From: Dendrophyllia cribrosa
Taxonomy: Eukaryota; Cnidaria; Anthozoa; Scleractinia; Dendrophylliidae
Length of the DNA: 64,000 bases
Reading direction: 5' to 3'
Assembly: GCA_024195265.1 (NCBI GenBank)
Contig: JAJLRJ010000003.1
Coordinates: forward strand, 31,684,143 to 31,748,142
Part shown: in pieces, positions 5,521 through 56,109 of the stretch
Layout: the number at the start of each line of letters is the position of its first letter
How positions within the stretch are numbered: position 1 is the stretch's first letter
Program-made: the position numbers and the translations under genes
The notes under the pieces: generated by a model
The model's database searches: none
What the model saw: only the letters and a program-made list of their open reading frames with translations
What the model was told of the DNA's origin: nothing

Positions 5521-6216
5521 ATGGCTTTGCGTTCTGGAACTTCGAGACTGAAACCGTTTGGTTTGCAGAACTATCATCATTCCATTGTGTTCAAGGAGTA
5601 TATTTTACATTTGGTGAAGTCGTTGGGTAAAGAAGATAGGTCGAGGTTTAGGTTTTGGTGTATTGATATAATTCCAAGGGCGAAATTGGATATAGACGTT
5701 GCGAGTGATGGGGATCTGTTGAAGTTGGTTGAATTTTTGCAGGATGATGATCAGCTGTCCTTTACTGATATGTCTTTGCTGAAAGGGTTTCTTTCAGCTG
5801 TTGAGCGTTTTGATTTGTTGGAAATTTTATATAAGGTTGAATTACGCATCGCAATTGGTATCATTTTGGAAAATTATACTTCGAATATCTTACATCAAGG
5901 AAGTAACATTGCTTATCATTTGTACGCGGACGTTGTGGAGTTTTTAGTTTCCACAAGAGAGAAAAATCAAGAACTGATTTCTCAAGCCTTGGAGCAGTTA
6001 CGACAAGCTGGCGATAACAGTGTAATCCTGTTCTTATTGAATGGTGTGATTCAAGAGTGGCAACTGAATCCTCAGTTATCCTGGCCGGAAGTGACAGCTT
6101 TATTTGTGATCATGGGCGAGCTGTGTTCCTCCGTCGGTTCAGATTCTGAAGTGAAAGAAGATTTTGAGACAACAATAACATTATTTGCAGAGTGGATGCT
6201 AAAACTTGGGGGTCTG
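5521..6216 (+). CDS. exon 1: death-effector-like domain plus Bcl-2-like region
   Basis: The start is ATG 5521 (context CAAAATGG); the frame is open further upstream only from a GTG. The exon ends at a GTAAGC donor at 6217 in phase 0 and gives 232 codons. Residues ~20-110 resemble a death effector domain of the caspase-8/FADD type: an F-CIDIIPRAK stretch, an FLQDDDQLS turn, then LLKGFLSAVERFDLLE, which contains the RxDL motif of DEDs. Residues ~150-232 resemble the Bcl-2 fold. A BH3-like core LRQAGD is at 5998-6015, and a BH1-like SWPEVTALFVIMGELC at 6079-6126. A helix AEWMLKLGGL at the exon end is completed as a BH2-like WYQIDDG in exon 2. Such proteins act as adaptors or regulators of caspase activation and mitochondrial integrity. 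DED is the surer call; the Bcl-2-like call rests on short motifs in the right order. Confidence 0.72.
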
Positions 6217-7483
6217 GTAAGCTTTGTAATGTTTTAGCACTTATTAATGTAAAATCATGGTACTAACTTATCAAAAGGCTTTGGGCAAATGCAGGAAACA
6301 AATTGCATCAATAGAGCATCAGTTGAATGTTGAAAGTAATTTCGTGATAGCTCTGGTTTTCCATTACTTTGCTCGCCGGGCCAGCAGCACGCAAAAAGCG
6401 GCCATTAGGGAACTACTTTTGTGTTTTTAATCCGATGGAGCTCAAACTTTGCAACATAACAGACATTGCAAGTCCAAACAATCGTATCGTTTTTGTTTTT
6501 CGATTTTAACGGTCTTTGGCGGGGAAATGGTGTCATACAACTAGAAACAAAATTTTATTTTCACCTTATGACTAAACTGATAAATGGTTTTAAAAGAACA
6601 TGTTGAGACAAATTAAAATATGAAAAAAATATTGAAAAAGCTCAATTGGTTTAAAAGATATAAAGATCTGAATTTTGAAATTCCTGCCATTTTGTTACTA
6701 TTTTTAGAAATTTGGCAAGTTTCGACATGCAATATCTTTTTAATCAACAATCATTTTAAAATTATTTTTTTCATATTTAAATTCGTGTCAACATATTCTT
6801 TCAAAATCATACATTAGTTTTATCACATGGTGAAAATAAAATTCTGCTGTTAGTTGTTTGACGCCATTTTCTCAGGGTCTCTCAGGAAACAGTGAATTTT
6901 GTTTCCCTTGAATCTCAATGTTTCGAGGGAAACAAAATTTACTATTTTCCTCGGGAGCCGTGATTAAGTGTTAATTATTGTAGGAGTAAAACATAATTTA
7001 TTTCTACACAATCTGCAGCCAACAATTTTTTAATGTGTGTTTAATGTGTGTTCACCATCTATATCACTGGCTGTAATCATGTGGTGCAAATATTTCCTGC
7101 CTCCACAACTGTGCTAAGTATTTGTCAGTGACTAAGTATGTTGTACCGTCACTCTTGCAGAATATTCTCTTAGAGCTCTGAGAGCAAAATATGACAAGTG
7201 ATTCCCCAAAGTGAGAATAAATCATAAATGAGATTTAATAATTGATTTTTCCAAAACACAAGGAAAGAACTTAAAAACAATTGGTCAATTTTTTCAAGTT
7301 GCAATCCATCTCCATCCCGGCCATCCACAGTCAATTAGTGACATTAAAAATAGGTGATAAATATTTCCCTCTTTAATCTGGCGTCAGTTTGTCTTCATAA
7401 CAGGTGGCCCCTTTCTTTATTAACGGTAACTTTTTTCTTGGTTATCTACCCTCACCATTTTAATCACATACACTTACAAGACT
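6217..7483. other. intron sequence with an inverted repeat
   Basis: No exon recognised. An imperfect ~50 bp inverted pair (GAAATGGTGTCATACAACTA at about 6525 against TAGTTGTTTGACGCCATTTT at about 6852) brackets AT-rich DNA. A hairpin with AGGGAAACAAAATT arms lies near 6880-6955. A stretch near 7285-7325 (TTTTTCAAGTTGCAATCCAT) is also found near 45046-45066. Confidence 0.5.
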
Positions 7484-8731
7484 TTAAAGTGTATATGACA
7501 GTGATTTTTTTATTTGCTTGATCAAATCTACATGATGTCCTGATAAGCAAATTAATGGAAAAAAATTTCGATATCGATTTTCCTGTTCTGCGGTTTAGCC
7601 GTCTAAAAACGTGAAATTTCACTTCCGGTCGGTTACAAAACCGCACAAGAAGCCTGAAGAAGGAAGACTGGGGATAGTCGGGCTGTGACGTCAATACAAG
7701 AACACCAGTTTCAATACCCGAGTTTCGCACAGTTGCCAAATTTGTTTTGCTTGTTGTCTTTCACGTTGTACGTTTCCATGCTGTACATGACCGCCAAAAT
7801 TATATCAAAAAACACGTCAACATGTAGTTAAAGAATAGACGCAGATTTCGGGAGCCATTCGGAATTCTCAGAAGTGGAATCGAATAATTCATCATCTGTT
7901 CACGACGAGCAACAAGCAGCTGGATCGCCGAATTGGTTCACTACCTGTGCATTTAATTTCAAAGACAAAGGTACCAAATTTTTTATTGCCACCAAAATCC
8001 ACATTTCGTGATTAACTTTGTCACCCTTCTTGAGTTCCTGCAGTGCATTACATGTAGCTGTTATTTTATGGGTATTGTTTTTTTGGTTTCACAAATATTT
8101 CTCTACATTCCTGTATTAGAAGATAATTGTGTACTTCACTGCATTTTATATGAAAATATATTCTTGATATATACATTCCTTAGTTAGCCATCAGTGGTGG
8201 ACTGTTTTGTGATCCTTTGATCCCACTCTTTTATTACGAAAGCTGAAATAAAAGTTACAATGATTCACTTCATTTTTTGCTTGGATCGATTTGTTGTTTT
8301 CTAACAAAGTGTATATGTTGTGGTTCAAATTTAATCTTTGGTTTGAAATTTTTAAACCAGTTTATGTTTTTTTTCAAACCAGTTTAAAATTTTGAACTGG
8401 TTTGAAATTTTCAAACTGGTTAGAAATTGTTAAACACATAGCTCATTCTCATTGATTTGTAACTCTGCCTGTAAACTGCTGTGTGTAAAATAAACTTGTG
8501 ACATTAAGGTGTCACACATTTCAGTAAGCACTCAGTTTTGTTGTATAGGGCTAAGCACTGATTTAAAATGGTTAGCTTTTATATAAGGTGAGTGTCACTG
8601 CTCACCAGTGCTAAAAGTGTACCCTTTGGGTTTAACCCCAGAGCGTCTCTTTAAAGGGCTATTTTGACAGGTTGGGGTTTGTATAAATCTGTAATCACTA
8701 AATTGAGTCACTACTTTGGCATAGTTTTACT

Positions 8732-9168
8732 CACCAAGACTGACATTCTTCCCTAGCAACATTTTGGGATGAAGCGATGTTACTTTATCACACTTTTCTA
8801 TTTGAATGGCTACCATATCTCCAACTTTGAAGATGTTTTTAGCCTGCTCTTTTTTGGTTATTTGCTGGACCATCTTTTCATTGTAAGTAGACTGGTTGGA
8901 GACAATCTTGCGTCTTTTTGCTTGCCGCTGATCGTTGAATTGACTCTCTGACTTTTCTTCCTGGTCTCCTTGGAGGCCTGGTTCTTCTGCATCAGGGTGC
9001 TGCTTGAGTTCTCTGTGATCTTTAAAGCTAAACACTGCTTCATATGGATTAGTTTGTATGGCTCTGTGATGTGTTATGTTCATGGTGTAGCTTGCTTCTG
9101 TTGTGAAATGGCACCACTTTGTAAGGTCTTTGTTTGCTTTGCTCATGATGAGTTTAAAAAAAATCTGT
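8732..9168 (-). CDS. integrase-like exon (Ginger/KRBA2-type), fragment
   Basis: Reading the minus strand, an open stretch begins after a possible acceptor (CCGTACAG) near 9168. It runs through the ATG at 9146 and ends at a GTGAGT donor just after 8733. The first part (MSKANKDLTKWCHF...YTMNITHHRAIQTNPYEAVF) resembles the end of a retroviral-type integrase core as found in Ginger transposons and host KRBA2/SCAND3-like proteins. The last part (FKVGDMVAIQI...CDKVTSLHPKMLLGK) resembles the small C-terminal beta-barrel. A charged linker of ~50 residues lies between. The catalytic residues are not in this piece, so a full protein would need upstream exons that I cannot see. It is probably a decayed transposon gene. 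A matching C-terminal piece on the + strand is at 12520-12823. Confidence 0.45.
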
Positions 9169-9269
9169 ACGGCAGATTTAGAAAAATGCTTATTTTTGAG
9201 AATTTCTCACTAAATGTTTTTTCTACCTACAGAATTTTTTAAAAATCGCAATAGAAATGCACCAAATTG

Positions 9270-9375
9270 ATCATAGGGGAGGGGGCAGGGCAGGTCAGGG
9301 GGGTAGGGGAGAGGGTAAGTGAGGTGAGGGGGATGCACAGAAATGATATGGGTGGGAAGGGCTTTTTTTTTTTTG
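9270..9375 (+). repeat. G-rich tract with quadruplex potential
   Basis: Repeated GGGGAGGGGGC/GGGTAGGGGAGAGGG-type runs followed by a T12 tract. It is non-coding and could form a G-quadruplex on the + strand. Confidence 0.5.
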
Positions 9376-10489
9376 GTGTATTATTCTTTTTAGACCCCCC
9401 AAAAAAACCCAAGCCCCTATTTTTTAAACCACACCCCATAAATAAAATCCCATTTTAGACAGTTGATAAACAAACCAGTTCAAAAATTTTAAACAGGTTT
9501 GAAAAAAATAAACTGGTTTAAAAATTTTAAACCAAAAAATATTTTGAACCACAACATATACATTGCAATTTATTTATTTTTATATAAGAGATATACTAAT
9601 GTGGTCAAGTCCAAAATGAAGCCTAAACTTTATATGGTTAAATTAGGGAATCAGAGGACTTTATTTGTTGTTATGCGTCGGTCAATTCCTGTATTGTAAT
9701 CCCTGAGATGGTCTCTTGATTTATCAAATTTAAAACAGTCTGCCCTACTTGGAGCAGCCCCCTCCCCCCTGGTGGTATTATGAAACCAGCCTGGCCTTTA
9801 CCTTTGTAGTTATATTGTCTTCCTTTGCCCAGGTGATAGATCCATTATATTTAATCATGAAAAGCTGACAAAATGCTAGGCACTAAGCCTTTTTACACAT
9901 TTGGATAGTGAGGAGATTAACGATACTCTTTCCTCAGTTTCCTTGCCTTTTTCTCTCCTCACAATTTTTCCTTCACATGAATCTCACTACATGTATTTGA
10001 GTGCCTGCATCGGGCTAAAGAACAACGCTGAGAGTCCCACTTAACATCACTTCAGCTCAGTTTCTGTTACACAAACTATATTAGGTGGATCATGGGTGTA
10101 TGTGTGTTACTTGTAGGGGGACCACCTGAATGCCCCTATTTGGTAATGAGGACAAGATGGCCTTCAAACAAAGCAAAAGTATAATATTGGTAATACAGTG
10201 TATTCTGTTTAAGGTTGGTCAAAAGCTCAATAGTTCTACATTAATTGTTCTATTCATTTCAACAACTGTGTCATTCAGAGTTTTTACATATGTTGGTGTA
10301 TGTCTAAGTACTCTTGGTTGCCAAAGTTTTAAAAAGAAAAGTATGAAACAAAACTGGAATATCCAGAGGGGTGGGGGTAGGGTCCAAACTAAAATACCTT
10401 TCATGGGAGGGGTATGGATATTTTCTGGAACACAATTTGTGAAAAAGCAAGAGGCTAACAGGGTTGCCATGGATACTTCCATGCTTGGA

Positions 10490-10565
10490 AGCAGGGATTT
10501 TGTAGTGGTGAGAGTGCTCGCCTCCCTCCAGTGTGGCCCCAGTTCGATTACCGGACTAGTTGTCA
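10490..10565 (+). mobile_element. tRNA-derived SINE fragment
   Basis: Contains an A-box-like TAGTGGTGAGAG and a B-box-like GTTCGATTACC ~40 bp apart, the internal Pol III promoter of tRNA-derived SINEs. Its wording (AGTGGTGAGAGTGCTCGCCTC) matches a SINE type common in cnidarians, from memory. The tRNA stems are too degraded for a gene. Confidence 0.5.
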
Positions 10566-12519
10566 TATACAGTAAACACCCGCTTGTAAGAACCAAGTGG
10601 ATTAAGAACCTACAGGCTGAAATTTGGAAATTAGACCCTCATTATAAGAACCCATTCAGCCTGACATTTGAAATAGGTTGTTTGTAAGATCAGTCAAAAA
10701 GCAGGCATTGTATCTAAAAATCCAGCTCCCATGTTGATTCATTAAGATGTGCTGTTTAGTGTGTACTGTAGTTCTTGTAATTCAAGCCAGACTCAGAGGT
10801 CCACTGTAAATAGTAGTACACTGTACTGTACACAACAGTTTCAGGGAAAGTATTGTACTGTAATTCCATTGTTGTACAAAATTATGTAGTTCCATTTAGT
10901 AGTTTCTGTGACACAACTGAAATAATGGGATTAAAGTACAAGCTCAAATGGAGCTTTCTGGATGTTAATAATCTGCCCAGAGTGAAGTACACTGTAACTG
11001 GTGCACATGCAAAACAGCAAAGAGAGAAGCTGGAACTCAATTGGCCTTCATGTCTTTTGCATCTGCACTCACCATGTTTACCGGTATCCAATTCCCCCTA
11101 ATGCCCTTTGAGCCTCCGTGGAGGATTAATAGGGCTAAAGGCAAAACAAATTTAGTTTTTTATGTTCACTGAGCTTGAGAACAGTGGCCTTCAGTAGCCA
11201 AATTTAATGCAAGTGATAACTGGTGATAATTCATTGGCAGTGGAATCTATCACTGATTGATTCACCTGCAAGCATCTTTGATCTTTGGCTACTTGTATAT
11301 TTCCCTTGACCTTTGTAATAAGAGTGGAAATACTTTGACCATGAGCAAGGAAGTCAATATAGATGTGATAATGCATCCAGAGTGATTCTATTAAAAAGCT
11401 GCACAGAAATCCACAACACATGTGTTCCCAGAGCTACTTGACCCTCATGCTCAGGCTCCGACGGTTAAGATGGCTGAGTGGCTCTGGGGACAAGAATGAC
11501 ATTGACTCAGAAAGTCCTTACCTATAGATGAGCCGCTTGCAGACAATGAGTGGTTGGAAAGTGAAGGAAGCTGAATAATGAATTATTCGATTCTGAGAGT
11601 TCCGATCGCTCCCGAAATCCACTTCTTTTCTTTAATTACATAAAATATTGACATGTCTTTTGATATCATTTTGACAGTCATGTACAGCAGGGACACGTAC
11701 AACATGGAAGACAAAACCCAAAACACTGAAAACAAACTCGGCAACTGAGCGAAGTCGGGAAACTGTCCTTCTTGTATTGACGTCACAACCCGACTATCCC
11801 CAATCTTCCTTCTTCAGGCTTCTTGCACGGTTTTGTAACCCACCGGAAGTGAAATGTCGCGTTTTTAGACGGCTAAAACGCGGAGAAGGAAAACCAATTA
11901 GACAAATATCGAACAAAAATTTTCCATTTTCTTATCAGGACATCATGTAGATTCGATCAAGCAAATAAAAAATCACTGTCATATACACTTTAATACAACA
12001 AAGCTTCAGTTGGGCAAAATATAATTTCTGACAAACTGTTCTTGAAAAACTGTACTACCACAGCTGAGGAAAAAAGCATAGAACAAACCTCAAATTCAAA
12101 AACCCTGTGTTTTAATTCTTATAGATTTTTACTCTGAAAACACTTTAATGATTTGATAACACTTCAATGATTTGATATTGACATCTCAACAAATATTATT
12201 TATTATTGACACAAAATTATATTGATTTGTTTGGTGCCAAATTAATGTGATTCGAGATGAAACGGTAGTCATGTAACCATGGTTTGTTTTTAAGCAAAAA
12301 AAAAAGCCGTCCGCTGACTATAATGATTTTAAAACAAAAAAGTAAACTTTGGCAAACATGTATCTGCCTGGGGAAGCAAACTTTGAGAGTTGCTTATCCA
12401 AAGGGCAAGCTGGAATCAAAGGTTTTTTTCAAGTGCTGTACATACATGTACATTCATGACATTTTTTATATATGTAATGAAAACTTGTATCTGTAATATT
12501 ATATTACAGTCAAATGAAA

Positions 12520-12823
12520 GAATCACGAAAAAAGAAGGAACCAAAATACAGGTCAATACAAAGTAGGCGATTTTGTTCGTATAAAGATAGATAAAGTAGA
12601 CAAAACTACGTCTCTCCAACCAAATGCATTACTTGGACAGGTGAAAAAAATACAAGATAATTACGCAAGAATAGCAACATTTGGAGTTATTTCAACTTTT
12701 ATTGCATTTAATCGGCTTAACGTGTGTCAAGAACTTAACTTAGATATTGATTATTCTAAAGAAATTCCATTTTCAACAGCCTGCAAAAGGGCAGTAGAAC
12801 AAATTGTAACAAAAGGTAATTGA
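12520..12823 (+). pseudogene. integrase C-terminal domain fragment
   Basis: An open stretch (KVGDFVRIKIDKVDKTTSL...ALLGQVKKI, then ARIATFGVISTFIAF) ends at a TGA near 12823. It aligns by eye with the C-terminal part of the integrase-like exon at 8732-9168 (KVGDMVAIQIEKCDKVTSL) but continues ~60 residues further, through a segment typical of the KRBA2/SCAND3/Ginger C-terminus. An in-frame stop lies a few codons upstream, so this is an isolated last exon or a broken copy. It sits just outside the TTAA-bounded element. Confidence 0.45.
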
Positions 12824-13356
12824 AAAAGTTACATGATTTAATAATGACATTGCAGTAAAATATAACATCAAAACACCTCAGTGTCATATTTATCTGTTCT
12901 CATGTCTTACTACTGCTGTTCCAAATCTTGCATGTGATCACCAATGCCTGTGCATTTTCAGGCACTTGTGATAAAAAATAATCCCTGTCTACAACCAGGA
13001 GGAACTTAGTTATCATTGCTGGCATATAGTATTACTGAAAACCCGAGTACGACTCGAGTTCTGACCACTGCATTTCTTAGTAGCCAAAGTTCGAAAAATA
13101 GACTCCACCCATATCTGCAAATTAGCATTATTGGAAAATTCTTAACAGTTACTTAAATCCCACATAGTAACCTGACTTGGTTACCATCAGTGTGGACAAA
13201 TAGCTGATGCATTAACTTGTACTCCACACTGTAACAATTAATGGCCCAGGAGCACTAAACTCTAAAACCATTAAAATAACTTTACATAACTGAGAAGAAC
13301 CCCAGACAGCAAAAATTTGGCCAAAGATTTCTGGAATCATACATTGCTGACGGTTA
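12824..13356. other. no gene recognised
   Basis: AT-rich intronic sequence between the integrase fragment and the first piggyBac-type element. I see nothing that I can assign. Confidence 0.5.
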
Positions 13357-14375
13357 TTAACCCATTGACACCTGAACCGCCCGTAACCGCCCGTACAAGA
13401 CTCCACTGCTTTAAAAAATTGTAACTTTCTCAATCGTGCGAACATTGCCTTAACTAGCAGTTGTGAGCATTGACTAGAAAGTCTTTCAAATTGAGATACC
13501 CAATAAACACAAAAAAGTCAGCGATTTTTGCAGAATATCAGCGTTTGAATTTGGACAATAACAAACATTACCGTTTTTAACGTCATAGAAAAACAACAAA
13601 AATCACGTTTTTGCCTTTAGTTTTTTTTATTCAAATCATCGTGGCAAACCCAAAAGTCAACATTTACAGCAAAATTCAGTCCTAGTCCTAGCTTAGCAGT
13701 GAATTTTTTTGCTCTTATTCGTTGCTCGGGCCTAGCTACAGCTTCTTATACTAGTGCATACTCACCTTGCCTCGATTTTCAACATCACCACCGCACTGCA
13801 TGCTGGGAAATAAACAGATTTTTCGACAGCGTCCATTCCGTCCTCCACAATTTTCATATATATACTAAGTCCACAGCCACTCTGACCCACCGCCGAAATT
13901 TCGCGCTTGTTGTGTTCTCCTGTGGTCGCAACTTCCAAAATATGCCGCGGTAGGTCGAGAAATTCATCCAGAGTCGAGTCCCAAAGCTACTTCGTTTCCA
14001 GGCGGCCATTTTTCCAGTTCAACGAGCAACGAGCCAAATTCGTAAACGAAGTACAACACCTAACTCGCTTCATTGAGAAGTGGACTCTGAACTACCTCCA
14101 AGCTTAATGATGCTCACCAGGCAGCTACTAAAGATTAAAAATGGCTGTGAACTTACCAAAAATCGTAGATAATTAATATTGGACCCTTTATTGCAAATCA
14201 ACCAAGCAAAATGAGATCGTCACAATGACGTTTCCAGTAAACTCGAGCCTTCGGTGTTTTACAACAGCAGCACTTTCAATGGTAACTCCAAATATGAAGT
14301 CACGAAATCCCATGGGGCGTGTGTATGCAGAAAATCACTCAAAAACGTAAAAATCCTCAGGTGTCAATGGGTTAA
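13357..14375. mobile_element. piggyBac-type non-autonomous element, copy 1
   Basis: An element of 1011 bp (13361-14371) with terminal inverted repeats CCCATTGACACCTGA...TCAGGTGTCAATGGG, flanked on both sides by TTAA. CC..GG ends plus a TTAA target are the signature of piggyBac-type elements. A nearly identical copy is at 33263-34274. Both copies keep the same 66-codon open frame (here 13907-14107), but it resembles no transposase I know. The element has no room for a piggyBac transposase and so depends on one supplied elsewhere. It is in a host intron. Confidence 0.8.
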
Positions 14376-14400
14376 TGAAGAAGATTAGCAAAACGGCAGG

Positions 14401-14961
14401 TTAAAGTGCCCCTGTGATCAAATTTTTGATTTTCATTTTTTTACATTTTCGTGTACAATTAGACATTCTTACTCGTCTTGCCAAATTTCAATTCATTACG
14501 AACATCAGAAGTCATTTTATTTTAACATTTTTTTCGAGAATTTTCGGCCGCCATTAATCAACCTTGTTCCAAGGCTTGGTTGCGAATGGGTGAAAATGAC
14601 GTCAAAGACTCAAACATACCTCACGGGTTGAAATTATAATAACAATAAGTATTGAAAATCACGCGAAAAGCAACAAAAACTTTGGACTTGTTCTTCGTGC
14701 CATTTTCTACGCTTATTGTTATTATAATTTCAACCCGTGAGGTATGTTTGAGTCTTTGACGTCACTTTCTCCCATTCGCAACTAAGCCTTGGAACAAGGT
14801 TGATTAATGGCGGCCGTAAATTCTCGGAAATAAATATTAAAATCAAATGACTTCTGATGTTCGTAATGCATTGAAATTTGGCAAGATGAGTAAGAAAGTC
14901 TAATAGTACACGAAAATGTAACAAAATCAAAATCAAAAATTTGATCACCGGGGCACTTTAA
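14401..14961. mobile_element. TTAA-bounded foldback MITE
   Basis: The element is 14405-14957 between two TTAA sites. Nearly the whole length is an inverted repeat (AGTGCCCCTGTGATCAAA... against ...TTTGATCACCGGGGCACT) with a ~90 bp spacer. Each arm has a TGACGTCA site (14597-14604, 14757-14764). The TTAA+AGTG start is shared with the 4.5 kb element at 7488 and the MITE at 44333, suggesting one transposase class. It lies 25 bp from the piggyBac-type element. Confidence 0.8.
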
Positions 14962-15755
14962 ATGAAACACCTTTGCTCATACATCAGTAATAAAACATCT
15001 TTACCCAACAGTTATTACTGGTAACTTGATGATGCTGTGGCTAATCCTGTCTTGTGCCACTTATCACAAGTTTAGTTTCAAAACGAAGTGTTTTCATTTC
15101 TGATCTGGTGCTAAGGATGATACAAAAATCCAGTTGTTAAGTTGAGGTTCTTCAAGAATGACTTGCACCAGCTATCCAATTTTGGGATACGCCTCTCTGG
15201 TATGAACATGCTTTAGCATGTGATGTTTCTTCCGAAGTGTGGAAACCATATCAACTGAAATAAGATCTCACAAAATAACAATACAACCATTACTGTTCTT
15301 GAACAATCGTAACAAATTCAACTACTCAGTACAGAAACAAACCATTTTCTATGTACTTTAAAAATTCATTAATAATTCATGAGCATATCAGCCAATCACA
15401 CGACGCAAATCGATCACGTGTATGAGCCTTTATACCTGGTAATCTACGGTCATTATGAAAAGCCTGGTGGCGGCTTTAATTTCAGTCACAGGGGAGTGCG
15501 GGGCTGAATGGGCAAACAATCAGATGCAATTATCGCTGAATTTTTAATGAGTGATTTTAAAATGACCACCGTGATATTTATATAAAGATCACACGTAATC
15601 TTTATATAAAGATAATATGGGTAGTAATTGTTCAGGATTCTTAGTGCAACAAATGGTGACTTTAATATTTTTATGCAGTACTGTTTTACGAAATCTGGTC
15701 TTTCGCCATTCTATTTGGAATCTTCTCAAGAAAATAAACAACCAACAGTTTAAAA
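14962..15755. other. no gene recognised
   Basis: Intronic sequence. The only structure noted is a small palindrome (TCTTTATATAAAGA) repeated near 15578-15612. Confidence 0.45.
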
Positions 15756-16022
15756 CCTGCCGCACACTTGAGGAAAGTGCTGAGCAAAATACCTCGCGAG
15801 GCAGTTAGCTCAGCTGTTTCCTCAAGTGTGCGCTGGAGTTTTTGTGAGTTTTTCGCCTCGCGAGGCTGTGAGGCCAATATCTGTCGTGTTTGATATTTTC
15901 TGCCTCGTGAGACAAATTCCTCATCGTGTGCGGGCGCCGCGAGAATCTGGCTGAGCCAAATTAATCGATTAGCCAATAAAATTGCATAGCGAGCTCACGT
16001 GATTTCAAGCTCGACATTCAAG

Positions 16023-16091
16023 ATGGCGGACAGGAGTGTGGTTAACGAAGTTATCCTAGAGGATAAACTTGTCAAGTTCTATGCAGCCTCG
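16023..16091 (+). pseudogene. short first-exon-like ORF in the Harbinger-like element
   Basis: ATG 16023 (AAGATGGCG context) opens MADRSVVNEVILEDKLVKFY, followed by a GTATGT donor-like site near 16092. It is too short for family assignment. By position it could be the start of the Myb-like accessory protein of a Harbinger element. Confidence 0.3.
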
Positions 16092-16439
16092 TATGTTGCA
16101 TGTTTACTGTATTAAAATCTAATAAAATGCTAAATTTAAATTACACCTAATTACAATAACGTTGTCATTGAAAAATGGAAAAAGGCCAATAGGAATTAAT
16201 TAGACACACAAATAACAATAGCCGCTGCACGCTTAATTTAAATTAACAATAGCCGCTGCACGCTTAATCGTGCCGCGTGTCGCTGTGAATGATGATTAAG
16301 CTAATTAATTCCTATTTGGCTTTTTTCATTTTTCATTTTCCTATGACAACATTACTGCAATTAGGTGTATATCCGCTAAGAATATTCTAAAAAAGTGGAT
16401 ATTAAAACTTTGTTTCAATATCAATTACAGCAATTGCAG

Positions 16440-16538
16440 TTATGCAAATGTAATATTACATTTTGTATACTCTAAGTGGACCACAAACAAACGGATAAGA
16501 AGAGCTACGAGAAGTTTTAACATCTCGTCGTGCGCCAT
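16440..16538 (-). pseudogene. possible N-terminus of Harbinger transposase
   Basis: On the minus strand ATG at 16538 opens MAHDEMLKLLVALLIRLFVV, then runs on for about a dozen more residues. Harbinger transposases often start with a short acidic Met segment followed by a Leu-rich helix, so the match is suggestive only. The DDE core is absent; the element has lost it. Confidence 0.3.
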
Positions 16539-17309
16539 CTTGAATGTCGAGCTTGAAATCACGTGAGCTTGCCATGCAATTTTATTGGCTAATCGATTAA
16601 TTTGGCTCAGCCAGATTCTCGCGGCGCCCGCACACGATGAGGAATTTGTCTCGTGAGGCAAAAAATATCAAACACGTCAGATATTTGCCTCACGACCTCG
16701 CGAGGCGAAAAACTCACCACAAATCCAGCGCACACTTGCGGAAACAGCTGAGCTAACTGCCTCGCGAGGAATTTTGCTCAGCACTTTCCTCAAGTGTGCG
16801 GCAGGCTTAACAAGTGAGCCGTTATTTGAATGACACCAGCGCCCTCGTGTAAATAGCAAAGCGCACAAATGACGTCAGTACTCATGTTTGTCTGAGTTTA
16901 TAATTTATTCTTGTTTATTCTTGCATTTCTGACAATAGACATTCGTTATTAGGAATCCCCTGAGAGTCACTTTTGGTTTGTTTGTCTGAGTTTTAGTTCT
17001 ATAAATAGTAATTGTGCGCTTCGCTATTGCCAGGTAAGCGACTGGTTCGCAGATGCAAGCTGCTTATTTCTACTCGTTCTCTTAACCACTGAAAAAAAAA
17101 AATTGTCAGCCGTTTTATCTACCAAACCTGACAACTTTGGTAAAGCATTTTTCAGTAGATGTTTTTTTCCTCAGAACTTTAAAATCCCAAAACTTTCGAC
17201 AGGAGCCGGGAAGCGATGGTCACTTCGTCGAAGACGTGGCACATGTGTTGTATGCTAATCAGTCTACTTGTTTTTCTTGTATGCTAATTTCCTATTTGCA
17301 CAAAAGCGC

Positions 17310-18365
17310 AATTGTTTTAGCCTGTGAACAGGCTTCATTTTGGGGAATTGGGTTAGGTTAAAATCGGCGAGCGAAGCGAGCCGAGCGCGGACTAGGGAAG
17401 AGGGAAGGGGCGGCGAAGCCTGTGGACTCGCCTTTGATGCCGCCGTTCCATGATACCAGAGTCTGGTATCATGAGCTGATTGGTCAGATCACTTGGTGTT
17501 GACAGGCATGTGGTGATCGACGACACATGTTGACATCTCAGATGCCTGGCGCCCTACATTTGCATAATTATTCCATTTGCTGGCCAAATGATAAACAAAC
17601 ACGGCGACTCGTTGCATGCAATTTTCAGATCTCGATTTGGAGAAAGCTTTGAACGATTCGTTGCGAAATTTTTCGCATATACCGAGACTTAAAGAAGAGC
17701 AAAAGCTGTGTCTAAAGTCTGTGGCAAAAAAGCAAGATGATTTTGGAATTTTGCCGACTGGATTTACAAAACAGTCACCATGTGCAGATTATCTGTTGGA
17801 TGCCAAATCAAACGCCATTACAAAACAACAGAGGTTTATCCTAGCTCCACTGAGACACACTACTCAACTACAGAACTTACTAAGGAGCTAAATTAATAAT
17901 TCATGATTTCATTGCAGTGGAATTATAGACTACGGCTTTTTGAGACTCGGATCTATACGCCTATTATACCGTGTGGCCGAAAAATCCGCCGAGATCAAAA
18001 GGTCAATATCATCGAAGAGAACAAATTCATAACTGCGATCTAAAGGCGCGATTCTCTCTGAATTCTTACTGGGTAAGCTTTATACTTTAGGCTTTTTGAA
18101 TACTTTTTAGCGAAGAGTGGGAGTCGTCTTAGCCTGTCTATTTTTATACTACAACCGATGCATTCAACCGAATAAAAACATGACAACTTGTTGACATATT
18201 AATTAACTTGTTCACAATTATAATAACAGGATAATTACTTGGGGGCGGAACGGCGGCCGGCATCAAAGGCGAGTCCACAGGCTTCGCCGCCCCTTCCCTC
18301 TTCCCCAGTCTTTTAACCTAACCCAATTCCCCAAAAAGAAGCCTGTTCACAGGCTAAATTGTTTT
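17310..18365. mobile_element. Mutator-like element with 9-bp target duplications
   Basis: The element is 17319-18356. The direct repeat AATTGTTTT flanks it (17310-17318 and 18357-18365), a 9-bp duplication typical of Mutator-like elements. The ends carry AGCCTGTGAACAGGCTTC and its complement, and the inverted repeats extend ~130 bp through a GGGGCGGCGAAGCCTGTGGA block. The interior holds a helicase-like reading frame, so this looks like a gene-fragment carrier (Pack-type) element. Confidence 0.75.
17616..17891 (+). pseudogene. RecQ-like helicase N-terminal fragment inside a transposon
   Basis: The frame from ATG 17616 reads FSHIPRLKEEQKLCLKSVAK then KKQDDFGILPTGFTKQ. This matches the Q-motif and Walker A region of RecQ-type helicases (x-EQ...DVF..LPTGxGKS), but the Gly-Lys-Ser core is degraded to T-K-Q, so ATP binding would be lost. 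After this the frame no longer resembles a helicase. The piece is ~90 residues of a protein that should exceed 500. It is bounded by the Mutator-like inverted repeats, which suggests capture of a helicase exon. Confidence 0.55.
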
Positions 18366-18427
18366 AATTCCGAAGGGACACGCTTTTGAAAGAATGTTTT
18401 TGAAACCGTTCAAAAAACTCGCAGTAC

Positions 18428-18490
18428 GTGTATTATCAGGTGTAAAAACTCTCGGCTTCGCATCGAGTTTTTAAACCTGATAATACACTA
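18428..18490. repeat. hairpin
   Basis: GTGTATTATCAGG-TGTAAAAACTC pairs with GAGTTTTTAAACCTGATAATACAC around a 13-base loop. It lies just outside the Mutator-like element. Confidence 0.6.
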
Positions 18491-18815
18491 CTGCTCGTTT
18501 TTTAAACTATACTTAATACATTTTCACATCACAGAATTGCTGAGAAATAACCGTTATAAGTACATTACCATATGTACAGCTGTAGATTAAATAGAAACTC
18601 AAACACCAAAACAAAACCACCTTAAGACTGTCAAGAAATTTTCTTATCAAGTAGTTGTAATGGGTTGACCATGACAAATGCTGCAGACACAAAGTCATTC
18701 AACACTATGTCCTGATAAACAACAGCAGTATATCAGTCAAAACATTGGAATCCGCATCAAAGTGACTAAATCGTACCACAAAGCAGTAGATAAAAAAAAA
18801 GAAAACTAATCTCTA

Positions 18816-18914
18816 CAAGTTGGAGCAAATTAACCTAGGTTGGAACAAATTGATCTAGGTTGAAACAAATTCACCTAGATAAAAACAAAATAACCTAGGT
18901 TGGAACAATTTAAC
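18816..18914. repeat. tandem ~20 bp repeat (aacctaggttggaacaaatt)
   Basis: Four to five diverged copies of AACCTAGGTTGGAACAAATT in a row. The unit contains the palindrome AACCTAGGTT. Function unknown. Confidence 0.65.
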
Positions 18915-19086
18915 CTGAAAGACAAAGTTACCTGCAACATAGCCACTGGCACTTTATTTCACCTGATGGTACATTCTTCCTATGTAATACCAAGGCATTT
19001 AATATTTAAAACTTGATTGACCTTGTCAACCAGGTATTTACTTGAATCTACAGTTCTATTAATTTTACTCAATAATTATTGTACAG

Positions 19087-19212
19087 TCTGACAGATGGTA
19101 TCAAATTGATGATGGTTCACTGTTTGAAACTCTGCCACACCTTATTGACTGTTACAGTAGATGTGCTGGAATCCAGTCGACACGAGGTCTTCTGGAACGA
19201 GCAGAATCAGCG
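19087..19212 (+). CDS. exon 2: completion of the BH2-like segment
   Basis: A 126 bp open exon between an acceptor (TTATTGTACAG, ends 19086) and a strong GTAAGT donor at 19213, phase 0 on both sides. It reads SDRWYQIDDGSLFETLPHLI and continues with Cys and charged residues (42 codons). Joined to exon 1 it gives EWMLKLGGL-SDRWYQIDDG, which resembles the BH2 region of Bcl-2 proteins (W...L...W-x-DNGGW). Many Bcl-2 family genes also carry an intron within BH2. The intron between exons 1 and 2 would be 12.9 kb and is nearly all transposons. No transmembrane tail follows, unlike canonical Bcl-2 proteins. Confidence 0.6.
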
Positions 19213-19647: not shown

Positions 19648-19817
19648 TTCAAAAATAGAGAATTGAATAACGATAGTACCGATTGTTTCATGTTTCGTTC
19701 TTCAAAGAGTTCCGACACATATTGTTACGCATATCAACTCCACTCACGACGTGTAGTTTCTATTGTATGATCTCAAGTCACGTGTAGTTCAAACAAAGAT
19801 TGGATCATGAATTAGAG

Positions 19818-20381
19818 ATGAAGAGGTTAGAATTAGGAGGGAAATCAGGATCAAGCTATCATTCTGGGACCACTTCAAGCGATAATTTTGAAATAACTAA
19901 GCACATCAGGTTAGTTCCACCCTTTCAGGAAACTGATGTTGACAAGTATTTTTTACATTTTGAAAAGGTTGCTGAGAATCTTAAATGGCCCAAACAGTAC
20001 TGGACCATGTTATTGCAAAGTAGTCTAATAGGTAGAGCTCGTGAAATTTATACTCAGTTAACAGTTTCTCAAACTTCAGATTATGATTCTGTTAAGGAGC
20101 TAATTCTTAAGGGGTACGAGTTAGTGCCAGAAGCATATCGTCAAAAATTTCGTAATTGTGAGAAAGAAACTAACAAGACTTATGTAGAATTTGCTAGGAC
20201 AAAGGAACAGCTATTTAATCGTTGGTGTTCTTCTCAGAAGATTGGTGAAGATTATGATAAGTTAAGACAGCTAATCTTAATCGAGGAATTTAAGAGGTGT
20301 ATTCACAGTGATGTCCGAACTTTTATCGACGAACAAAAAGCGGAAACCCTCGATATTGATGACTGTCTTTCCAGGGTGTAA
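19818..20381 (+). CDS. Gag-like protein of the LTR element
   Basis: The ATG at 19818 is the first in frame; the frame is open to an upstream TTG at 19800. About 188 residues follow. The region from IRLVPPFQETDVDKYFLHF to KLRQLILIEEFKRC is the alpha-helical capsid/SCAN-like core found in Ty3/gypsy Gags. It contains a W-P-x2-W segment and an AYRQKFRN..K segment near residue 115. Gag would form the particle that packages the element RNA. A zinc knuckle is lacking and a stop comes at 20381, so the protein is shorter than a full Gag-Pol. It may still be intact enough to be mobilised in trans. Confidence 0.65.
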   Translation: MKRLELGGKSGSSYHSGTTSSDNFEITKHIRLVPPFQETDVDKYFLHFEKVAENLKWPKQYWTMLLQSSLIGRAREIYTQLTVSQTSDYDSVKELILKGYELVPEAYRQKFRNCEKETNKTYVEFARTKEQLFNRWCSSQKIGEDYDKLRQLILIEEFKRCIHSDVRTFIDEQKAETLDIDDCLSRV

Positions 20382-27744: not shown

Positions 27745-27821
27745 ACCACCAATTTTTAGGGTTTTCACTTTGTGTTTATATATATATATATAAAAACACA
27801 AAGTGAAAACCCTAAAAACTG

Positions 27822-27891
27822 TCCTGATCGGGATTCGAACCCGCGTCCCCTACTTTCTAACGTCGATGTGTTAACCATTACACCACCAGGA
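27822..27891 (-). tRNA. tRNA-like SINE head (probable pseudo-tRNA)
   Basis: The acceptor stem TCCTGGT pairs with ATCAGGA. A-box TGGTGTAATGG and B-box GGTTCGAATCC are perfect Pol III promoter matches. The anticodon arm gives an 8-base loop in the sister copy, so no anticodon can be assigned. Repetition with a common tail marks it as a SINE head. Confidence 0.5.
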
Positions 27892-28044
27892 CGACCACGC
27901 AACAACGCAGCCGAACTTTAGGCTTTATGGCTCACAGGCCTCTCGAACAATTTTCAGTGTTTTCACAGGAGCTGACTGGAAGGCTTCTAGGCCTTTTTGA
28001 CGAATATAAATAACACAAATGAACTTAGAAAACCCTAAAAATTG

Positions 28045-28114
28045 TCGTGATCGGGATTCGAACCCGCGTCCCCGACTTTCTAGCGTCGATGTGTTAACCA
28101 TTACACCACCAGGA
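28045..28114 (-). tRNA. tRNA-like SINE head, second copy
   Basis: Same A and B boxes as the copy at 27822-27891. The anticodon stem (TCGAC/GTCGG) is better paired here but encloses an 8-base loop. Not considered a functional tRNA gene. Confidence 0.5.
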
Positions 28115-28439
28115 CGACCACGCAACAACGCAGCCGAACTTTAGGCTTTATGGTTCACGGGCCTCCCGAACAATTTTCAGTGTTTTCACAGGAGCTGACT
28201 GGAAGGCTTCTAGGCCTTTTTGACGAATATAAATAACACAAATGAACTTAAACCAGTCAAATAAAGAATAAATAAACACAAAGTGAAAACCCTAAAAATT
28301 ATCCTGATCGGGATTCGAACCCGAATTCAAAAAGGCCTAGAAGCCTTCCAGTGAGTGTTGATAAATTAGTAATATTAGTAATATTCTTTTGACAATTTCA
28401 TCTGCATCTAAAGTTCTCCTCTTTATTTTGCTTCAACAG

Positions 28440-28560
28440 TCAGTTCTTCAGTTCTTCAGTCCTTCAGATGCTCAGAGCTCAACAAAAACAGAAGACGTAA
28501 TGTATCCATCCACCGGCCAAACTTCTGAGCGGACTGAAGGCATGACTGAGCACCATACAG
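28440..28560 (+). CDS. exon 3: Ser/Thr-rich linker
   Basis: 121 bp between a polypyrimidine-rich acceptor (TTTTGCTTCAACAG, ends 28439) and a GTACCC donor at 28561. It starts in phase 0, matching the end of exon 2, and ends in phase 1, matching the Roc exon. The 40 residues (SVLQFFSPSDAQSSTKTEDV...GMTEHHT) are Ser/Thr-rich and probably disordered. Several AG dinucleotides follow the acceptor, so the exact start could shift by one or more codons. Confidence 0.5.
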
Positions 28561-29883: not shown

Positions 29884-32177
29884 TGGTTCCTTCAGAGATA
29901 AACTTACGTGGACCCTTGGCCTTGGAAGCCTACAACAAGGCCCTCGCTGAAGGAAAAGCTTGTATCAAAAGGGTGCCAGTCATGTTGATTGGACAAGACC
30001 ACTCAGGAAAGACAAGCCTCAAGAATTCTCTCATGGGAAAACCCTTCAACGAGGATGAAGACAGCACTGTGGGTATAGATGTTGATCCCTCATATTTCAA
30101 AGTCTCAAGTGAGATTTGGAGGCCAGGAGAGAACGATCAAGCAACAAATGACATAGAAGACACTTCCTTTGAGCACCACACCGCTCGTTTAGTCGCTGAA
30201 GAATTGAAGGAGGAAAAGAGGGCTACAAAGTCTATGCAATCCGAAAACAGCGCATCTGAATTACCCGTGGATAGCAGAAAAAGTGCACCATCTAGTGAGA
30301 CATCAAAAGATGCCACAGAATCTATTCACACATCAAAAGATCCAAACGTCGATGTCAGGAAACACATTCCAAAAACCTCCTCTGGGCCAATGCAGAGAAG
30401 GAATGAATGCTCGTTGCTCCCCTTACCTAATATACCAGACGAGATAGCAATTTTGATTAAAAAAATGATAAAAGAAGTCGAGAAATTGCAAGATGAAGAA
30501 GAAATATATTCAGTTTTGTGGGATTTTGGTGGACAATCTGTCTACTATACAACCCATCCACTTTTCATCACTACAAAAGCAATGTACCTTTTGGTTTTTG
30601 ATCTCAGCCGCGATCCTTACGCCATGGCTGAACCCGTTGAGAAGCAAGGAAAGTACCGGAAGATTTTACACAACCACGGCGCAAAATCTAATCTGGACTA
30701 TCTTAATTTTTGGATGACATCCGTTGCTTCTCTAGCTAGTCAAGATGAAGACCAGCATGTACGTTCAGGTCGAGTGCAATTAATTATTCCTCCTGTGTTC
30801 CTAGTTTGTACACATGCCGATGAACCCTATGGTGGGACAAATCCACTTGAACTTGCTCGTGAGTTACTTGGTTTTCTAAAGACCAAGCCCTACAGAAACC
30901 AGCTGTATAACGACGTTTTTGTCGTGAATAACAAAATGTCAGGCACTGAATCTGAGTGTCCAGAGGTTATTCGCTTGCGGGAAAACGTACTTGCTGTTGC
31001 TAAGGAGCTGCCACAGATGAAAGAACCTATCCCCATCAAGTGGTTAAAGTATGAAAAGGCTCTTCAAGTCACAGTGAAAGAGGGGCATAAGTGGATTGAT
31101 TTCAAAATGGCAAAACAAATTGCATCTGAAGTGTGCCAAATTGATGATGATAAAGAGCTTTCGACATTGCTAGACTTTCTTCATGATCAAAGAATCTTGA
31201 TTCACTTTGATGACACTCCAGTGTTGAACAATTTGGTTGTCTTGGACCCTCAGTGGTTGGTGGATGTGTTTAAGATGGTGATAACTGTTGCGCGTTATGA
31301 CCAACAGGAAGCAGAATTTGAAGAATTGTGGTGGAGGCTCGAGTCAAAAGGCATCCTGGATGAAAAACTGTTAGAGCATGTGTGGGGTTCTTTATTAGAC
31401 GAGCAAGAGACCTCTGCGAGCCTTACTGAAATAATGGAGAAATTCAGCTTGTTGTGTCCTTTGCCTTCATCAGATGCTTCATGTGGCAAGCAGTACCTGG
31501 TGCCATCCATGTTGAATTGTCATCCGCCGAAGGGCACCATCGAATTGGTTGACTCTGTACAGATTCCGTCTCTTTTCTTCAAGTTTGAATCTGGACAAGT
31601 TCCACCAGGCTTGTTTCCCCGACTTGTGTTGCAATTCTTTCAGTGGGGCCAAGATGAATTTTGGAGCTCAGAGAATCCTGATTTGTACCACAGTTTTGCC
31701 CGATTTTACACCTCAGCAGACGACGACTGCTCTGTAATCCTTCTGTGCCATTCCTCGTCCATCGAAGTTGCTGTTCACAGAGGAAATGTCAATGCTGACG
31801 TGACAGAAAGTTTACAGTCCAAGCTGAACATTTCTTCAAGTTTCAACTGTGATGCATTTGAAGTGGCCTGTGCTCGTGCTGTGCGTAAGAAGCTGGGACT
31901 GATGCTTGAGTGCATGCGTGAGGAGTTCCGTTGGTTGAAGAATATGAAGTATGAAGTAGGTGTCATCTGCCCGATCTGTTGCCAAGGACGTGTAGCTAAA
32001 TACAACTGCATGCATCCCAAGCAGGGTTGTGAGCAAGAAGAGTGTCTGCACTTCTGGTCTGAGTCGGAGTTGCTCAGCGTCAAGCATTCCATCAGGTGCT
32101 GCAGGTTAGCTACTGCCCAGATTAACAAAGTTCCAGTCAACCAAATTGCGCCTTGGATTGAAACTCCAAGTGAACAG
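29884..32177 (+). CDS. exon 4: Roc-COR GTPase with Cys/His tail
   Basis: One large exon of ~765 codons from an acceptor at 29881-29883 (phase 1) to a GTAAAT donor at 32178 (phase 0). The Roc GTPase has G1/P-loop GQDHSGKTS (29991-30017), a G3 motif WDFGGQ (about 30519-30536) and a G4-like THAD (30810-30821). A Ser/Thr- and Glu-rich insertion of ~130 residues separates G1 from G3. The COR dimerisation domain follows from about 31030 (WLKYEKALQ...LDPQWLVDVFK). Near the end a Cys/His cluster (CPICC...CMHPKQGCEQEECLHF) could bind zinc. ROCO-type proteins act as GTP-dependent switches in stress and death signalling, as in DAPK1, LRRK and MFHAS1. The last exon adds a death domain. No kinase or LRR is seen in this window. 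Confidence 0.85.
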
Positions 32178-33258: not shown

Positions 33259-34278
33259 TTAACCAATTGACACCTGAACCGCCCGTAACCGCCCGTACAA
33301 GACTCCACTGCTTTAAAAAATTGTCACTTTCTCAATCGTGCGAACATTGCCTTAACTAGCAGTTGTGAGCATTGACTAGAAAGTCTTTCAAATTGAGATA
33401 CCCAATAAACACAAAAAAGTCAGCGATTTTTGCAGAATATCAGCGTTTGAATTTGGACAATAACAAAAATTACCGTTTTTAACGTCATAGAAAAACAACA
33501 AAAATCACGTTTTTGCCTTTAGTTTTTTTTATTCAAATCATCGTGGCAAACCCAAAAGTCAACATTTACAGCAAAATTCAGTCCTAGTCCTAGCTTAGCA
33601 GTGATTTTTTTTGCTCTTATTCGTTGCTCGGGTCTAGCTACAGCTTCTTATACTAGTGCATACTCAACTTGCCTCGATTTTCAACATCACCACCGCACTG
33701 CATGCTGGGAAATAAACAGATTTTTTTGACAGCGTCCATTCCGTCCTCCACAATTTTCATATATATACTAAGTCCACAGCCACTCTGACCCACCGCCGAA
33801 ATTTCGCGCTTGTTGTGTTCTCCTGTGGTCGCAACTTCCAAAATATGCCGCGGTAGGTCGAGAAATTCATCCAGAGTCGAGTCCCAAAGCTACTTCGTTT
33901 CCAGGCGGCCATTTTTCCAGTTCAACGAGCAACGAGCCAAATTCGTAAACGAAGTACAACACCTAACTCGCTTCATTGAGAAGTGGACTCTGAACTACCT
34001 CCAAGCTTAATGATGCTCATCAGGCAGCTACTAAAGATGAAAAATGGCTGTGAACTTACCAAAAATCGTAGATAATTCATATTGGACCCTTTATTGCAAA
34101 TCAACCAAGCAAAATGAGATCGTCACAATGACGTTTCCAGTAAACTCGAGCCTTCAGTGTTTTAGAACAGCAGCACTTTCAATGGTAACTCCAAATATGA
34201 AGTCACGAAATCCTATGGGGCGTGTGTATGCAGAAAATCACTCAAAGACGTAAAAATCCTCAGGTGTCAATGGGTTAA
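33259..34278. mobile_element. piggyBac-type non-autonomous element, copy 2
   Basis: The element is 33263-34274 (1012 bp) between TTAA sites, collinear and almost identical with copy 1 at 13361-14371. The left end reads CCAATTGACACC instead of CCCATTGACACC; the right end is intact. The same 66-codon open frame is kept at 33810-34010. The low divergence points to recent activity. It sits in the intron between the Roc-COR exon and exon 5. Confidence 0.8.
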
Positions 34279-34648: not shown

Positions 34649-34895
34649 AAAATGATGAAAAATTGCTTGCACTACCTAGTAAGGATCTCGAATCACTGTT
34701 GTCGCAGCCGTGTGATTCCAAAGAAGTTGTACTTCAACTGAAAGACTGTCTGCAGTTGGATCAGGCTTCCTTGGAGCAGCCATCCAGACCCCGGAACCAA
34801 AAGATTGATCCGCTGCCTGGCAAGAAAAGCAAAACAGTCAAACAGGCTTGACGTGTTTGAACACCTCAGAGAAATAACACCAGCTGGGACGACAG
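34649..34895 (+). CDS. exon 6: linker ahead of the death domain, frame-disrupted
   Basis: From an acceptor TTTCTTTTACAG (ends 34648) to a GTGAGT donor at 34896. The upstream part, in phase with exon 5, reads [18 protein letters not shown] through SLEQPSRP. The downstream part, in phase with exon 7, reads [20 protein letters not shown] then [11 protein letters not shown]. The two are one frame apart, and the upstream frame hits TGA at 34849. So a one-base indel lies around 34775-34800, or the exon is really two. An alternative acceptor ending at 34607 keeps the end phase but runs into a TGA near 34739. Either the allele is broken or the assembly has a one-base error here. Confidence 0.55.
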
Positions 34896-37125: not shown

Positions 37126-37760
37126 GCATTTCTTTCCTTATTATGGTAAAACGAATAAAAAAGCCACCAACAAGGAACTCTTATCTTCGACTGTAGTAAC
37201 CAACTGTAGGGAAAAACGCAATATGTAAGCGATAGAAAACTTTGGTAGGTTAACAACAACGGGTTAGCTTAGCAGGTCCAATCTACAACTAAAAATCAGT
37301 CTGAAAATAAGACGCGACTCAAATTGCACAACTCTTTATCCGTTATGCGAAATAATTTGAATTCAGCGTGCGCGCGCAACACTCAGTACAAACAGAAACA
37401 TAGTGCACACTAACTAAACATTTTTTTATATAAAGTTAATGTTACGCGAGGTCGATTTTTAATGCAACATTTTGTTGCGGTAACATGTTGCAAGTCTTTG
37501 AAGCTGATTAACAAACTCGCAATGTGTTGGTAACGGCAGCATGCAAGCGTCATCACAGCAAGGAGTCATCATAAAGAGACAAAATGAGTCTACCCAACTT
37601 ACAATCTTAACGCACAGGGCGCAGGCTTCTCAAGGAAGACCACAGACTGAACGGACTGTTCGGAATGTTCGAACATCTTCCTACTTGATTACTAAAAATA
37701 GGGTTTTAAGTATTTTTTAAGTATACCTTTTTAAAATAAATGAATGTCTCTATGCATGTT
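37126..37760. other. intron sequence, nothing recognised
   Basis: More GTTGCAACA-like motifs near 37460-37540. No exon seen before the acceptor at 37761-37764. Confidence 0.45.
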
Positions 37761-37764
37761 GCAG

Positions 37765-37961
37765 GTGGAGATGAGTGGAAGATGCTTGCTGCAGAATTGG
37801 GCTTGAAACAACACGAGATTCGTTACCTTGACAACCACCGATTTCGGAACCCATGTGATGCTTTGCTGGCGCATATCGCTAATCAGGGCTACAGAAGTGT
37901 GGGATTTCTGTACAATATACTGATCAAATGTAAATTTCCCCTGGTAGCTGACCTTCTGTGA
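37765..37961 (+). CDS. exon 8: death domain and stop
   Basis: After an acceptor CATGTTGCAG (ends 37764) in phase 1, the exon reads GDEWKMLAAELGLKQHEIRY ... VGFLYNILIKCKF-PLVADLL and stops at 37959-37961. This is a death domain: the W near the start of helix 2, the LA..LGL..-EI pattern and a helix 5 ending LY..L are characteristic. Death domains pair with partner death domains to build signalling platforms. A death domain after Roc-COR also occurs in DAPK1. This is a last exon; a clear AATAAA is not seen within the next 200 bp. Confidence 0.8.
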
Positions 37962-52560: not shown

Positions 52561-52634
52561 TTCGGCCGAACATACTTATTCTCTTGCCAGCTTTACTAAT
52601 TGACTAATTGAAAACCGCTGTATTTTGTGTTTAG

Positions 52635-53770: not shown

Positions 53771-54135
53771 ACATCATGAGCCAACGTAGCGAATCAACTT
53801 TTACTTTACTAGTATGGTGGCCATGCTGGCTCCATCAAAACGAAGACTCCTGCTAGTAAAAATCGCAAGTAACCTGAGTACGAGACCTTCGTTAGGGGAG
53901 ACCTGATACGAATATTCTCAGGTTAAACAAATTAACAGTTGCTAGAGAAACTGGGAGGTGAAATAGCCAGCAGTAAATCACCGTATAACAGTGTTTTGTT
54001 GGGAAACGGGTTTCGAATAGCCAGTGTTCAAAAGAGTGGAATTTACGGTCAAATTTTCAGACTCATTAGTAACCAGATTTAGAAATTTTATTTCATAAAT
54101 CGGTACATTTTAATGTTAATTGACCACCGTAAAAA

Positions 54136-54184
54136 GATTCAAATAGCTGACGTTTCGAGCGCTAGCCCTTCGTCGGAGCGAATC
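54136..54184 (-). ncRNA. hammerhead-like motif in Penelope end (minus copy)
   Basis: Complement of the motif at 58891-58939, in the sense of the minus-strand copy. Confidence 0.35.
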
Positions 54185-56107: not shown

Positions 56108-56109
56108 TC

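Follow-up and report, generated by a model that had tools for sequence, protein, structure and literature searches.

The window analysed here comprises 64,000 nt of the coral Dendrophyllia cribrosa (assembly GCA_024195265.1, contig JAJLRJ010000003.1, positions 31,684,143 to 31,748,142 of the forward strand). Close to its beginning lies an exon (exon 1), which is very probably the first exon of a gene from a family that fuses a death effector domain (DED) to a divergent Bcl-2 fold. Exons for a Roc-COR GTPase and a Death domain are found further downstream (Table 1). DED-type domains recruit cell-death enzymes, while the Bcl-2 fold guards mitochondria.

A death effector domain followed by a Bcl-2-like region

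Exon 1 (5521-6216) is an open frame of 232 codons, which begins with an ATG in good context and is left in phase 0 at a GTAAGC donor. Pfam places a DED (PF01335) at residues 24-106 with an E-value of 1.5e-9 and 38.4 bits, compared to the curated cut-off of 35.9, and the domain has the six helices of a death fold. Its RxDL motif, noticed earlier together with the DED when the locus was read from its letters alone (the sequence-only reading), was confirmed as RFDL at residues 96-99. Exon 1 contains a single DED, and a caspase domain was not seen by Pfam in the window frames searched.

The sequence-only reading also proposed that a Bcl-2-like region follows in the same chain. Three lines of evidence speak for this: the predicted structure, the comparison of profiles and the position of the intron. 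In two AlphaFold models, residues ~96-232 resemble Bcl-2 folds. The first model was made from an alignment of 11 sequences (A1) for 238 residues, including six intron codons at the end (pLDDT 68); judged by entry title, the 50 structure matches listed for it were 29 Bcl-2 and 21 DED entries. The second model, of exon 1 alone, was made from an alignment of 18 sequences (A3; pLDDT 73), and its 50 listed matches were 26 Bcl-2 and 24 DED entries. Thus, the lack of a Bcl-2 fold match over residues 120-260, which was to speak against the proposal, did not occur for residues 96-232. In the model the last helix of the DED and the first helix of the Bcl-2 fold are one continuous helix (residues 97-124), and since it runs through both domains, these would be rigidly coupled.

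At the level of sequence profiles, exon 1 matches Pfam Bcl-2 with residues 147-222 on profile positions 10-82 (E 0.009; 17.0 bits, below the cut-off of 31.4). At E <= 1 the family was matched by four of 18 sequences (the window copy, P0004, P0014 and P0015), none of them above the cut-off; in the latter two, which are divergent members, the alignment extends to position 99 of 100. An hhalign comparison of the second domain to six human Bcl-2 proteins, one of them confirmed as Bcl-xL, gave a score of 31.4. The maximum of 200 column shuffles was 20.9, the reversed alignment reached 22.7, and the same human template scored 8.7 with the relatives' own DED. When compared to the 11 Bcl-2 loci of the same genome defined by PF00452, the score was 38.5 (probability 82%; maximum of 200 shuffles 20.8). 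In addition, a profile of eight of the 18 sequences, which we picked for diversity (A4), was searched against the PDB: the top of seven matches was Bak (5vmn, E 0.03), and NRZ was found at 0.75. Pfam Bcl-2 is the sole family matched by more than one member of A4 (three of eight).

Both hhalign comparisons, with the human and with the own-genome Bcl-2 proteins, align W188 to the BH1 tryptophan and W225MLKLGG to the W-x4-GG of BH2. The BH1 position reads W188PEVTALFVIMGEL, with the tryptophan present in 18/18 sequences and G199 in 17/18, and the segment that the sequence-only reading had called BH1-like thus holds as the BH1 position. In BH2, W225 is conserved in 16/18 sequences and G230, G231 and L232 in all 18, the leucine replacing the last tryptophan of GGW; the same GGL is found in the own-genome Bcl-2 locus L016, which scores at the Pfam cut-off. 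The span from the BH1 tryptophan to the BH2 GG is 36-44 residues in 14 of the 18 and 50 residues, equal to Bcl-xL, in P0014-P0017.

The donor GTAAGC follows directly after GGL, in phase 0. According to a review of the family (PMC8998228), pro-survival Bcl-2 genes of the mouse have an exon boundary at the GGW of BH2, and so do those of sponge and placozoan. The predicted boundary of exon 1 matches this phase-0 boundary. In 16 of 17 database relatives GGL is followed by VS, which a GT donor at this point would produce, and the 17th, P0010, departs from the shared sequence exactly at GGL. Of the own-genome Bcl-2 loci, read as genomic frames only, 10/11 show GG[W/L] and then a GTN codon for V; only L013 continues as one frame. 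The earlier idea that an exon join within BH2 fits the Bcl-2 family therefore stands for the boundary at GGL in exon 1, not for a join at WYQIDDG.

Relatives and paralogs

Two protein searches, one of which was limited to scoring the 8000 candidates with the most words in common, together yielded the 17 database relatives, which are 43-79% identical to the window protein. Pfam finds the DED at E <= 2.7e-4 in 16 of them, the remaining one, P0004, starting after most of the domain; many relatives start at the aligned Met. The genome search covered 627 Mb in 22 contigs and gave, besides the self match, at least four further loci with 75, 59, 57 and 27% identity, a count which is a lower bound.

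P0010, probably a spliced relative, runs on into a short terminal exon, and by tblastn with its tail a terminal-type exon was detected 3' of each of the three closest paralogs (Table 1). Read by eye, these exons end in a stop after 41-45 codons and start with the pattern [KR]xF[EK]xx[IV]R; in Bcl-2 itself, DAFVEL follows GGW. Such an exon would complete BH2, and each of the three paralog loci has the appearance of a stand-alone DED-Bcl-2 gene of two exons, laid out as in Bcl-2 itself. The pairing of L004 with L023 is the least sure, owing to the distance and the N stretches between them. In the terminal exons of the paralogs, to which this reading by eye was confined, no long hydrophobic run was noticed. 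The joined product of the nearest paralog, L002, matches Pfam Bcl-2 with E 0.0012 over profile positions 9-96. In the 27% paralog (L005), the frame ends with GSWVS and the sequence resembles the DED-Bcl-2 relatives (hhalign 43.8).

Several observations weigh against the assignment to the Bcl-2 fold or depart from the usual pattern of Bcl-2 genes. The Pfam cut-off of 31.4 bits was reached by none of the 18 sequences and neither of the two joined paralogs, the best being a joined paralog with 19.8, and the joined L003 product gave no Pfam Bcl-2 match at E <= 1. In hhalign, L005 did not beat its own shuffles when compared to Bcl-2. A PDB profile search with ten of the 11 A1 sequences, trimmed (A2), contained no Bcl-2 among 19 matches, nor did a single-sequence search with residues 107-274 among three. 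For P0004, the Pfam match to PRANC (E 0.0074) is stronger than that to Bcl-2 (0.012). A BH1 of the NWGR type is absent: none of the 18 sequences has G at position 189 or R at 190. (WGR is present in 9/11 Bcl-2 loci of the genome; L015 has WAR and L016 neither.) A BH3 of the LxxxGD type is not conserved, L...[GAS]D being found before BH1 in 4/18 sequences and at differing places. LRQAGD, which the sequence-only reading took for the BH3, was rejected as a conserved BH3 on these grounds and because the Pfam alignment sets it after the BH3 position; the corresponding segment of L002 is LQQAGD. Finally, a terminal exon of the paralog type was not found in the window or in the next 60 kb, 5000 bases of which are N.

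Candidate exons downstream of the window copy

In the sequence-only reading, 19087-19212 was the second exon and completed BH2 as WYQIDDG. We rejected the stretch in this role. BH2 is part of exon 1 (W225MLKLGGL), the Pfam Bcl-2 score changed from 17.0 to 16.6 bits when the stretch was added, and its acceptor is poor (-2.3 on a home-made matrix). Its codon score is equalled by 6.5% of stop-free intron stretches, a weak test, since the Death-domain exon itself reaches only 4.1%. By tblastn it was not found at E <= 0.05 in the fetched paralog regions, where a different exon follows. It follows GGL in none of the 17 relatives, which says little because 16 of them look unspliced. Just 3' of it, at 19788-20381, a SCAN/Retrotrans_gag frame (SCAN E 3e-10) is probably an intronic retroelement.

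The candidate linker exon has a codon score equalled by 7.8% of stop-free intron stretches. The Roc-COR exon is well recognized by Pfam (Roc 2e-16, COR-A 6.9e-19) with its GTPase motifs intact, and the Death domain was found with E 9.6e-8 in the frame 37740-37961 alone and with 8.4e-8 when joined to the earlier stretch. A well-coding stretch at 34651-34848 and the first Death helix (34842-34895) lie in different frames, pointing to an indel, a missed intron or decay. The Roc-COR and Death exons may belong to a ROCO gene of their own or be a C-terminus that was captured. In DAPK1 and other ROCO proteins, Roc-COR is followed by a Death domain, as in the 3' part of the window; these proteins are not known to have a DED or a Bcl-2 fold.

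A dispersed direct repeat (13357-14118 and 33259-34021; ~19.9 kb apart, 99% identical over the compared stretches) flanks the Roc-COR exon. At 27805-28250 there is a 223-nt tandem duplication (97%) with two minus-strand tRNA matches (27820-27892 and 28043-28115).

Table 1. Features of the DED-Bcl-2 locus, and terminal exons of its paralogs
Feature	Position	Strand	Remarks
Exon 1	5521..6216	+	Complete predicted DED and Bcl-2-fold module, 232 aa; start ATG within AAAATGG; donor GTAAGC at 6217
Death effector domain	5581..5847	+	Residues ~21-109
Bcl-2-fold domain	5809..6216	+	Residues ~97-232; predicted structure
Proposed BH3, LRQAGD	5998..6015	+	Present; past the BH3 position in the Pfam alignment; unconserved
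BH1-equivalent	6076..6123	+	LSWPEVTALFVIMGEL; W188, no GR after W; hhalign register with BH1 W of Bcl-xL and of own Bcl-2 loci
BH2, first half	6193..6216	+	WMLKLGGL, split by phase-0 intron after GGL; hhalign register with WIQENGG
Proposed exon 2	19087..19212	+	Stop-free and in frame, with AG before and GTAAGT after; weakly supported
Candidate linker exon	28440..28560	+	Entered in phase 0 and left in phase 1; fits the Roc-COR exon
Roc-COR GTPase exon	29884..32177	+	GQDHSGKT, DFGGQ and THAD motifs; neighbour gene or C-terminal part
Death domain, last part, with stop	37765..37961	+	First helix probably at 34842-34895
Paralog terminal exon	L017:4408-4292		~5.6 kb downstream of 75% paralog; starts KDFES after AG (by eye)
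Paralog terminal exon	L024:8831-8715		~1.2 kb downstream of 59% paralog; starts KVFKE after AG (by eye)
Paralog terminal exon	L023:3232-3116		~36.8 kb downstream of L004 (57% paralog); starts KAFEV after AG (by eye)

What the window copy may encode

Up to the end of exon 1, the window copy is intact. The missing terminal exon could mean that it is a decaying duplicate, which makes at most a DED-Bcl-2 core that runs a few codons into the intron and ends with GGLVSFVMF and a stop, or nothing, and its position 3.7-4.0 Mb away from the other four genome matches would be in line with this. We consider such decay rather unlikely. Exon 1 is fully open, with the identities to the 17 relatives and of 75% to the nearest paralog given above, and has retained the Met, the donor and the family-invariant residues; moreover, the terminal exon could be distant, as L004 and its best candidate lie ~36.8 kb apart.

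Another possibility is that the window copy was rewired, exon 1 being spliced over ~23 kb to the Roc-COR and Death exons, which would result in a DED-Bcl-2-Roc-COR-Death protein, a GTPase-switched death scaffold. All exons concerned are on the same strand, the phases of 19087-19212 and 28440-28560 fit both exon 1 and the Roc-COR exon, the Roc motifs are intact with a Death domain downstream, and the terminal exon was not found. The Death query had one 30-residue match (E 0.005, 53%) in L021, downstream of the paralog L004. On the other hand, what follows each of the three paralogs is an exon carrying its own stop, and the Roc-COR query had no match at E <= 0.05 in the fetched paralog regions. 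With the joined model (1040 residues) as a query, no relative of the DED-Bcl-2 part (region 1-274) was found at E <= 0.001 among 2639 candidates, the length range of which was set by that model. Furthermore, the linking exons are weak in codon score, the frame changes before the Death domain, and 5000 of the bases in the next 60 kb are N. Such a protein, in which four parts of the cell-death machinery would come together under a GTP switch, is improbable, and so is its possible origin by loss of the terminal exon from a DED-Bcl-2 copy and capture of the ROCO gene next to it.

That the second domain is another all-helical bundle which merely resembles Bcl-2, for example a second DED, is very improbable: although sequence scores are low, model confidence is moderate and the arrangement alone can give helical bundles high structural scores, all listed non-DED structure matches of both models are Bcl-2, the phase-0 intron after GG and the BH1/BH2 register agree independently, and a tandem DED was rejected, since the listed DED structure matches stop by residue 121 in both models and the hhalign score of 33.8 with the family's own DED covers only the 13 residues common to both cuts.

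Relation to known systems and possible function

A DED-Bcl-2 protein was not described in the literature found by full-text search, the listed matches being judged by title and the start of the abstract; within these bounds the sequence-only reading was right that no protein with both domains has been described. The family could be easily missed, because its Bcl-2 part is far below the Pfam cut-off. With the Bcl-2 family (NRZ, Bcl-xL, MCL-1, Bak) it shares the predicted fold, the BH1 tryptophan, the W-x4-GG of BH2, a core exon ending with GG[W/L] in phase 0 and a short final coding exon (the latter in the paralogs). It differs by the N-terminal DED, the lack of GR after the BH1 tryptophan, the unconserved BH3 and the low Pfam score, and in the paralogs no obvious C-terminal membrane anchor was seen by eye. 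In contrast to FADD, caspase-8, c-FLIP, viral FLIPs and PEA-15, exon 1 has one DED, which is followed by a predicted Bcl-2 fold. BFAR/BAR (bifunctional apoptosis regulator) is thought to bridge the caspase-8 and Bcl-2 arms, and it binds Bcl-2 but is not known to contain a Bcl-2 fold.

The closest known design is that of the DED-TRADD-N families, which, as stated in PMC8195603, are expanded in cnidarians and other marine invertebrates and combine an N-terminal DED with a second signalling domain and variable flanks. The family described here is likewise multi-copy, with an N-terminal DED and then a second signalling domain. However, TRADD-N is described there as RRM-like, whereas the region after the DED is predicted to be all-helical and Bcl-2-like in our case, and Pfam scans of exon 1 and the 17 relatives gave no match to TRADD-N (PF09034).

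The ancestral protein may have been a cytosolic regulator of about 270 residues. With the RxDL motif present, DED contacts are plausible, and the DED would dock into DED assemblies of the caspase-8/FADD type. The lack of GR after the BH1 tryptophan in 18/18 sequences and the unconserved BH3 make a classic BH3 capture unlikely; the Bcl-2 fold would have lost the usual grip on BH3 helices and might bind another partner. The protein could then act as a decoy, or as an adaptor between the extrinsic, DED-based arm and regulation of the Bcl-2 type. Because the BH1 arginine is missing from all 18 sequences, we prefer, tentatively and with somewhat less than even confidence, such a DED-guided role as adaptor or decoy to that of a classic Bcl-2 guardian. 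Death control by the extrinsic (DED/caspase-8) and by the intrinsic (Bcl-2) arm is taught as two separate modules, which cleavage of Bid connects. If the assignment is true, a small gene family in which both domains form one rigid unit would mean a direct fusion of the two arms in an animal, and a Bcl-2 fold would be in use without the arginine that grips BH3.

Other observations

The own-genome Bcl-2 locus L013 (487-1908; C17:8411234) contains an open frame of 474 aa in which DUF4559 (E 2.1e-24; also a weak HEPN match, Swt1-like) is joined to a complete Bcl-2 domain (E 1.5e-26), with a hydrophobic tail by eye. On these matches, the genome has a second Bcl-2 fusion of the multidomain kind. Between two of the DED-Bcl-2 paralogs, L018 and L019 have long frames, by eye a candidate DNA element of the Polinton/Maverick type (packaging-ATPase-like, integrase-like).

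In the window, 52604-52969 is a Ly6/CD59/Quiver-like frame with E 0.001-0.002, below the cut-offs. Positions 54111-56113 and 56962-58964 form a perfect inverted repeat of 2003 nt with 848 nt in between. It contains a reverse transcriptase frame, presumably of a Penelope-like element, and a weak GIY-YIG match in both orientations, and is either a very recent element or an assembly artefact.

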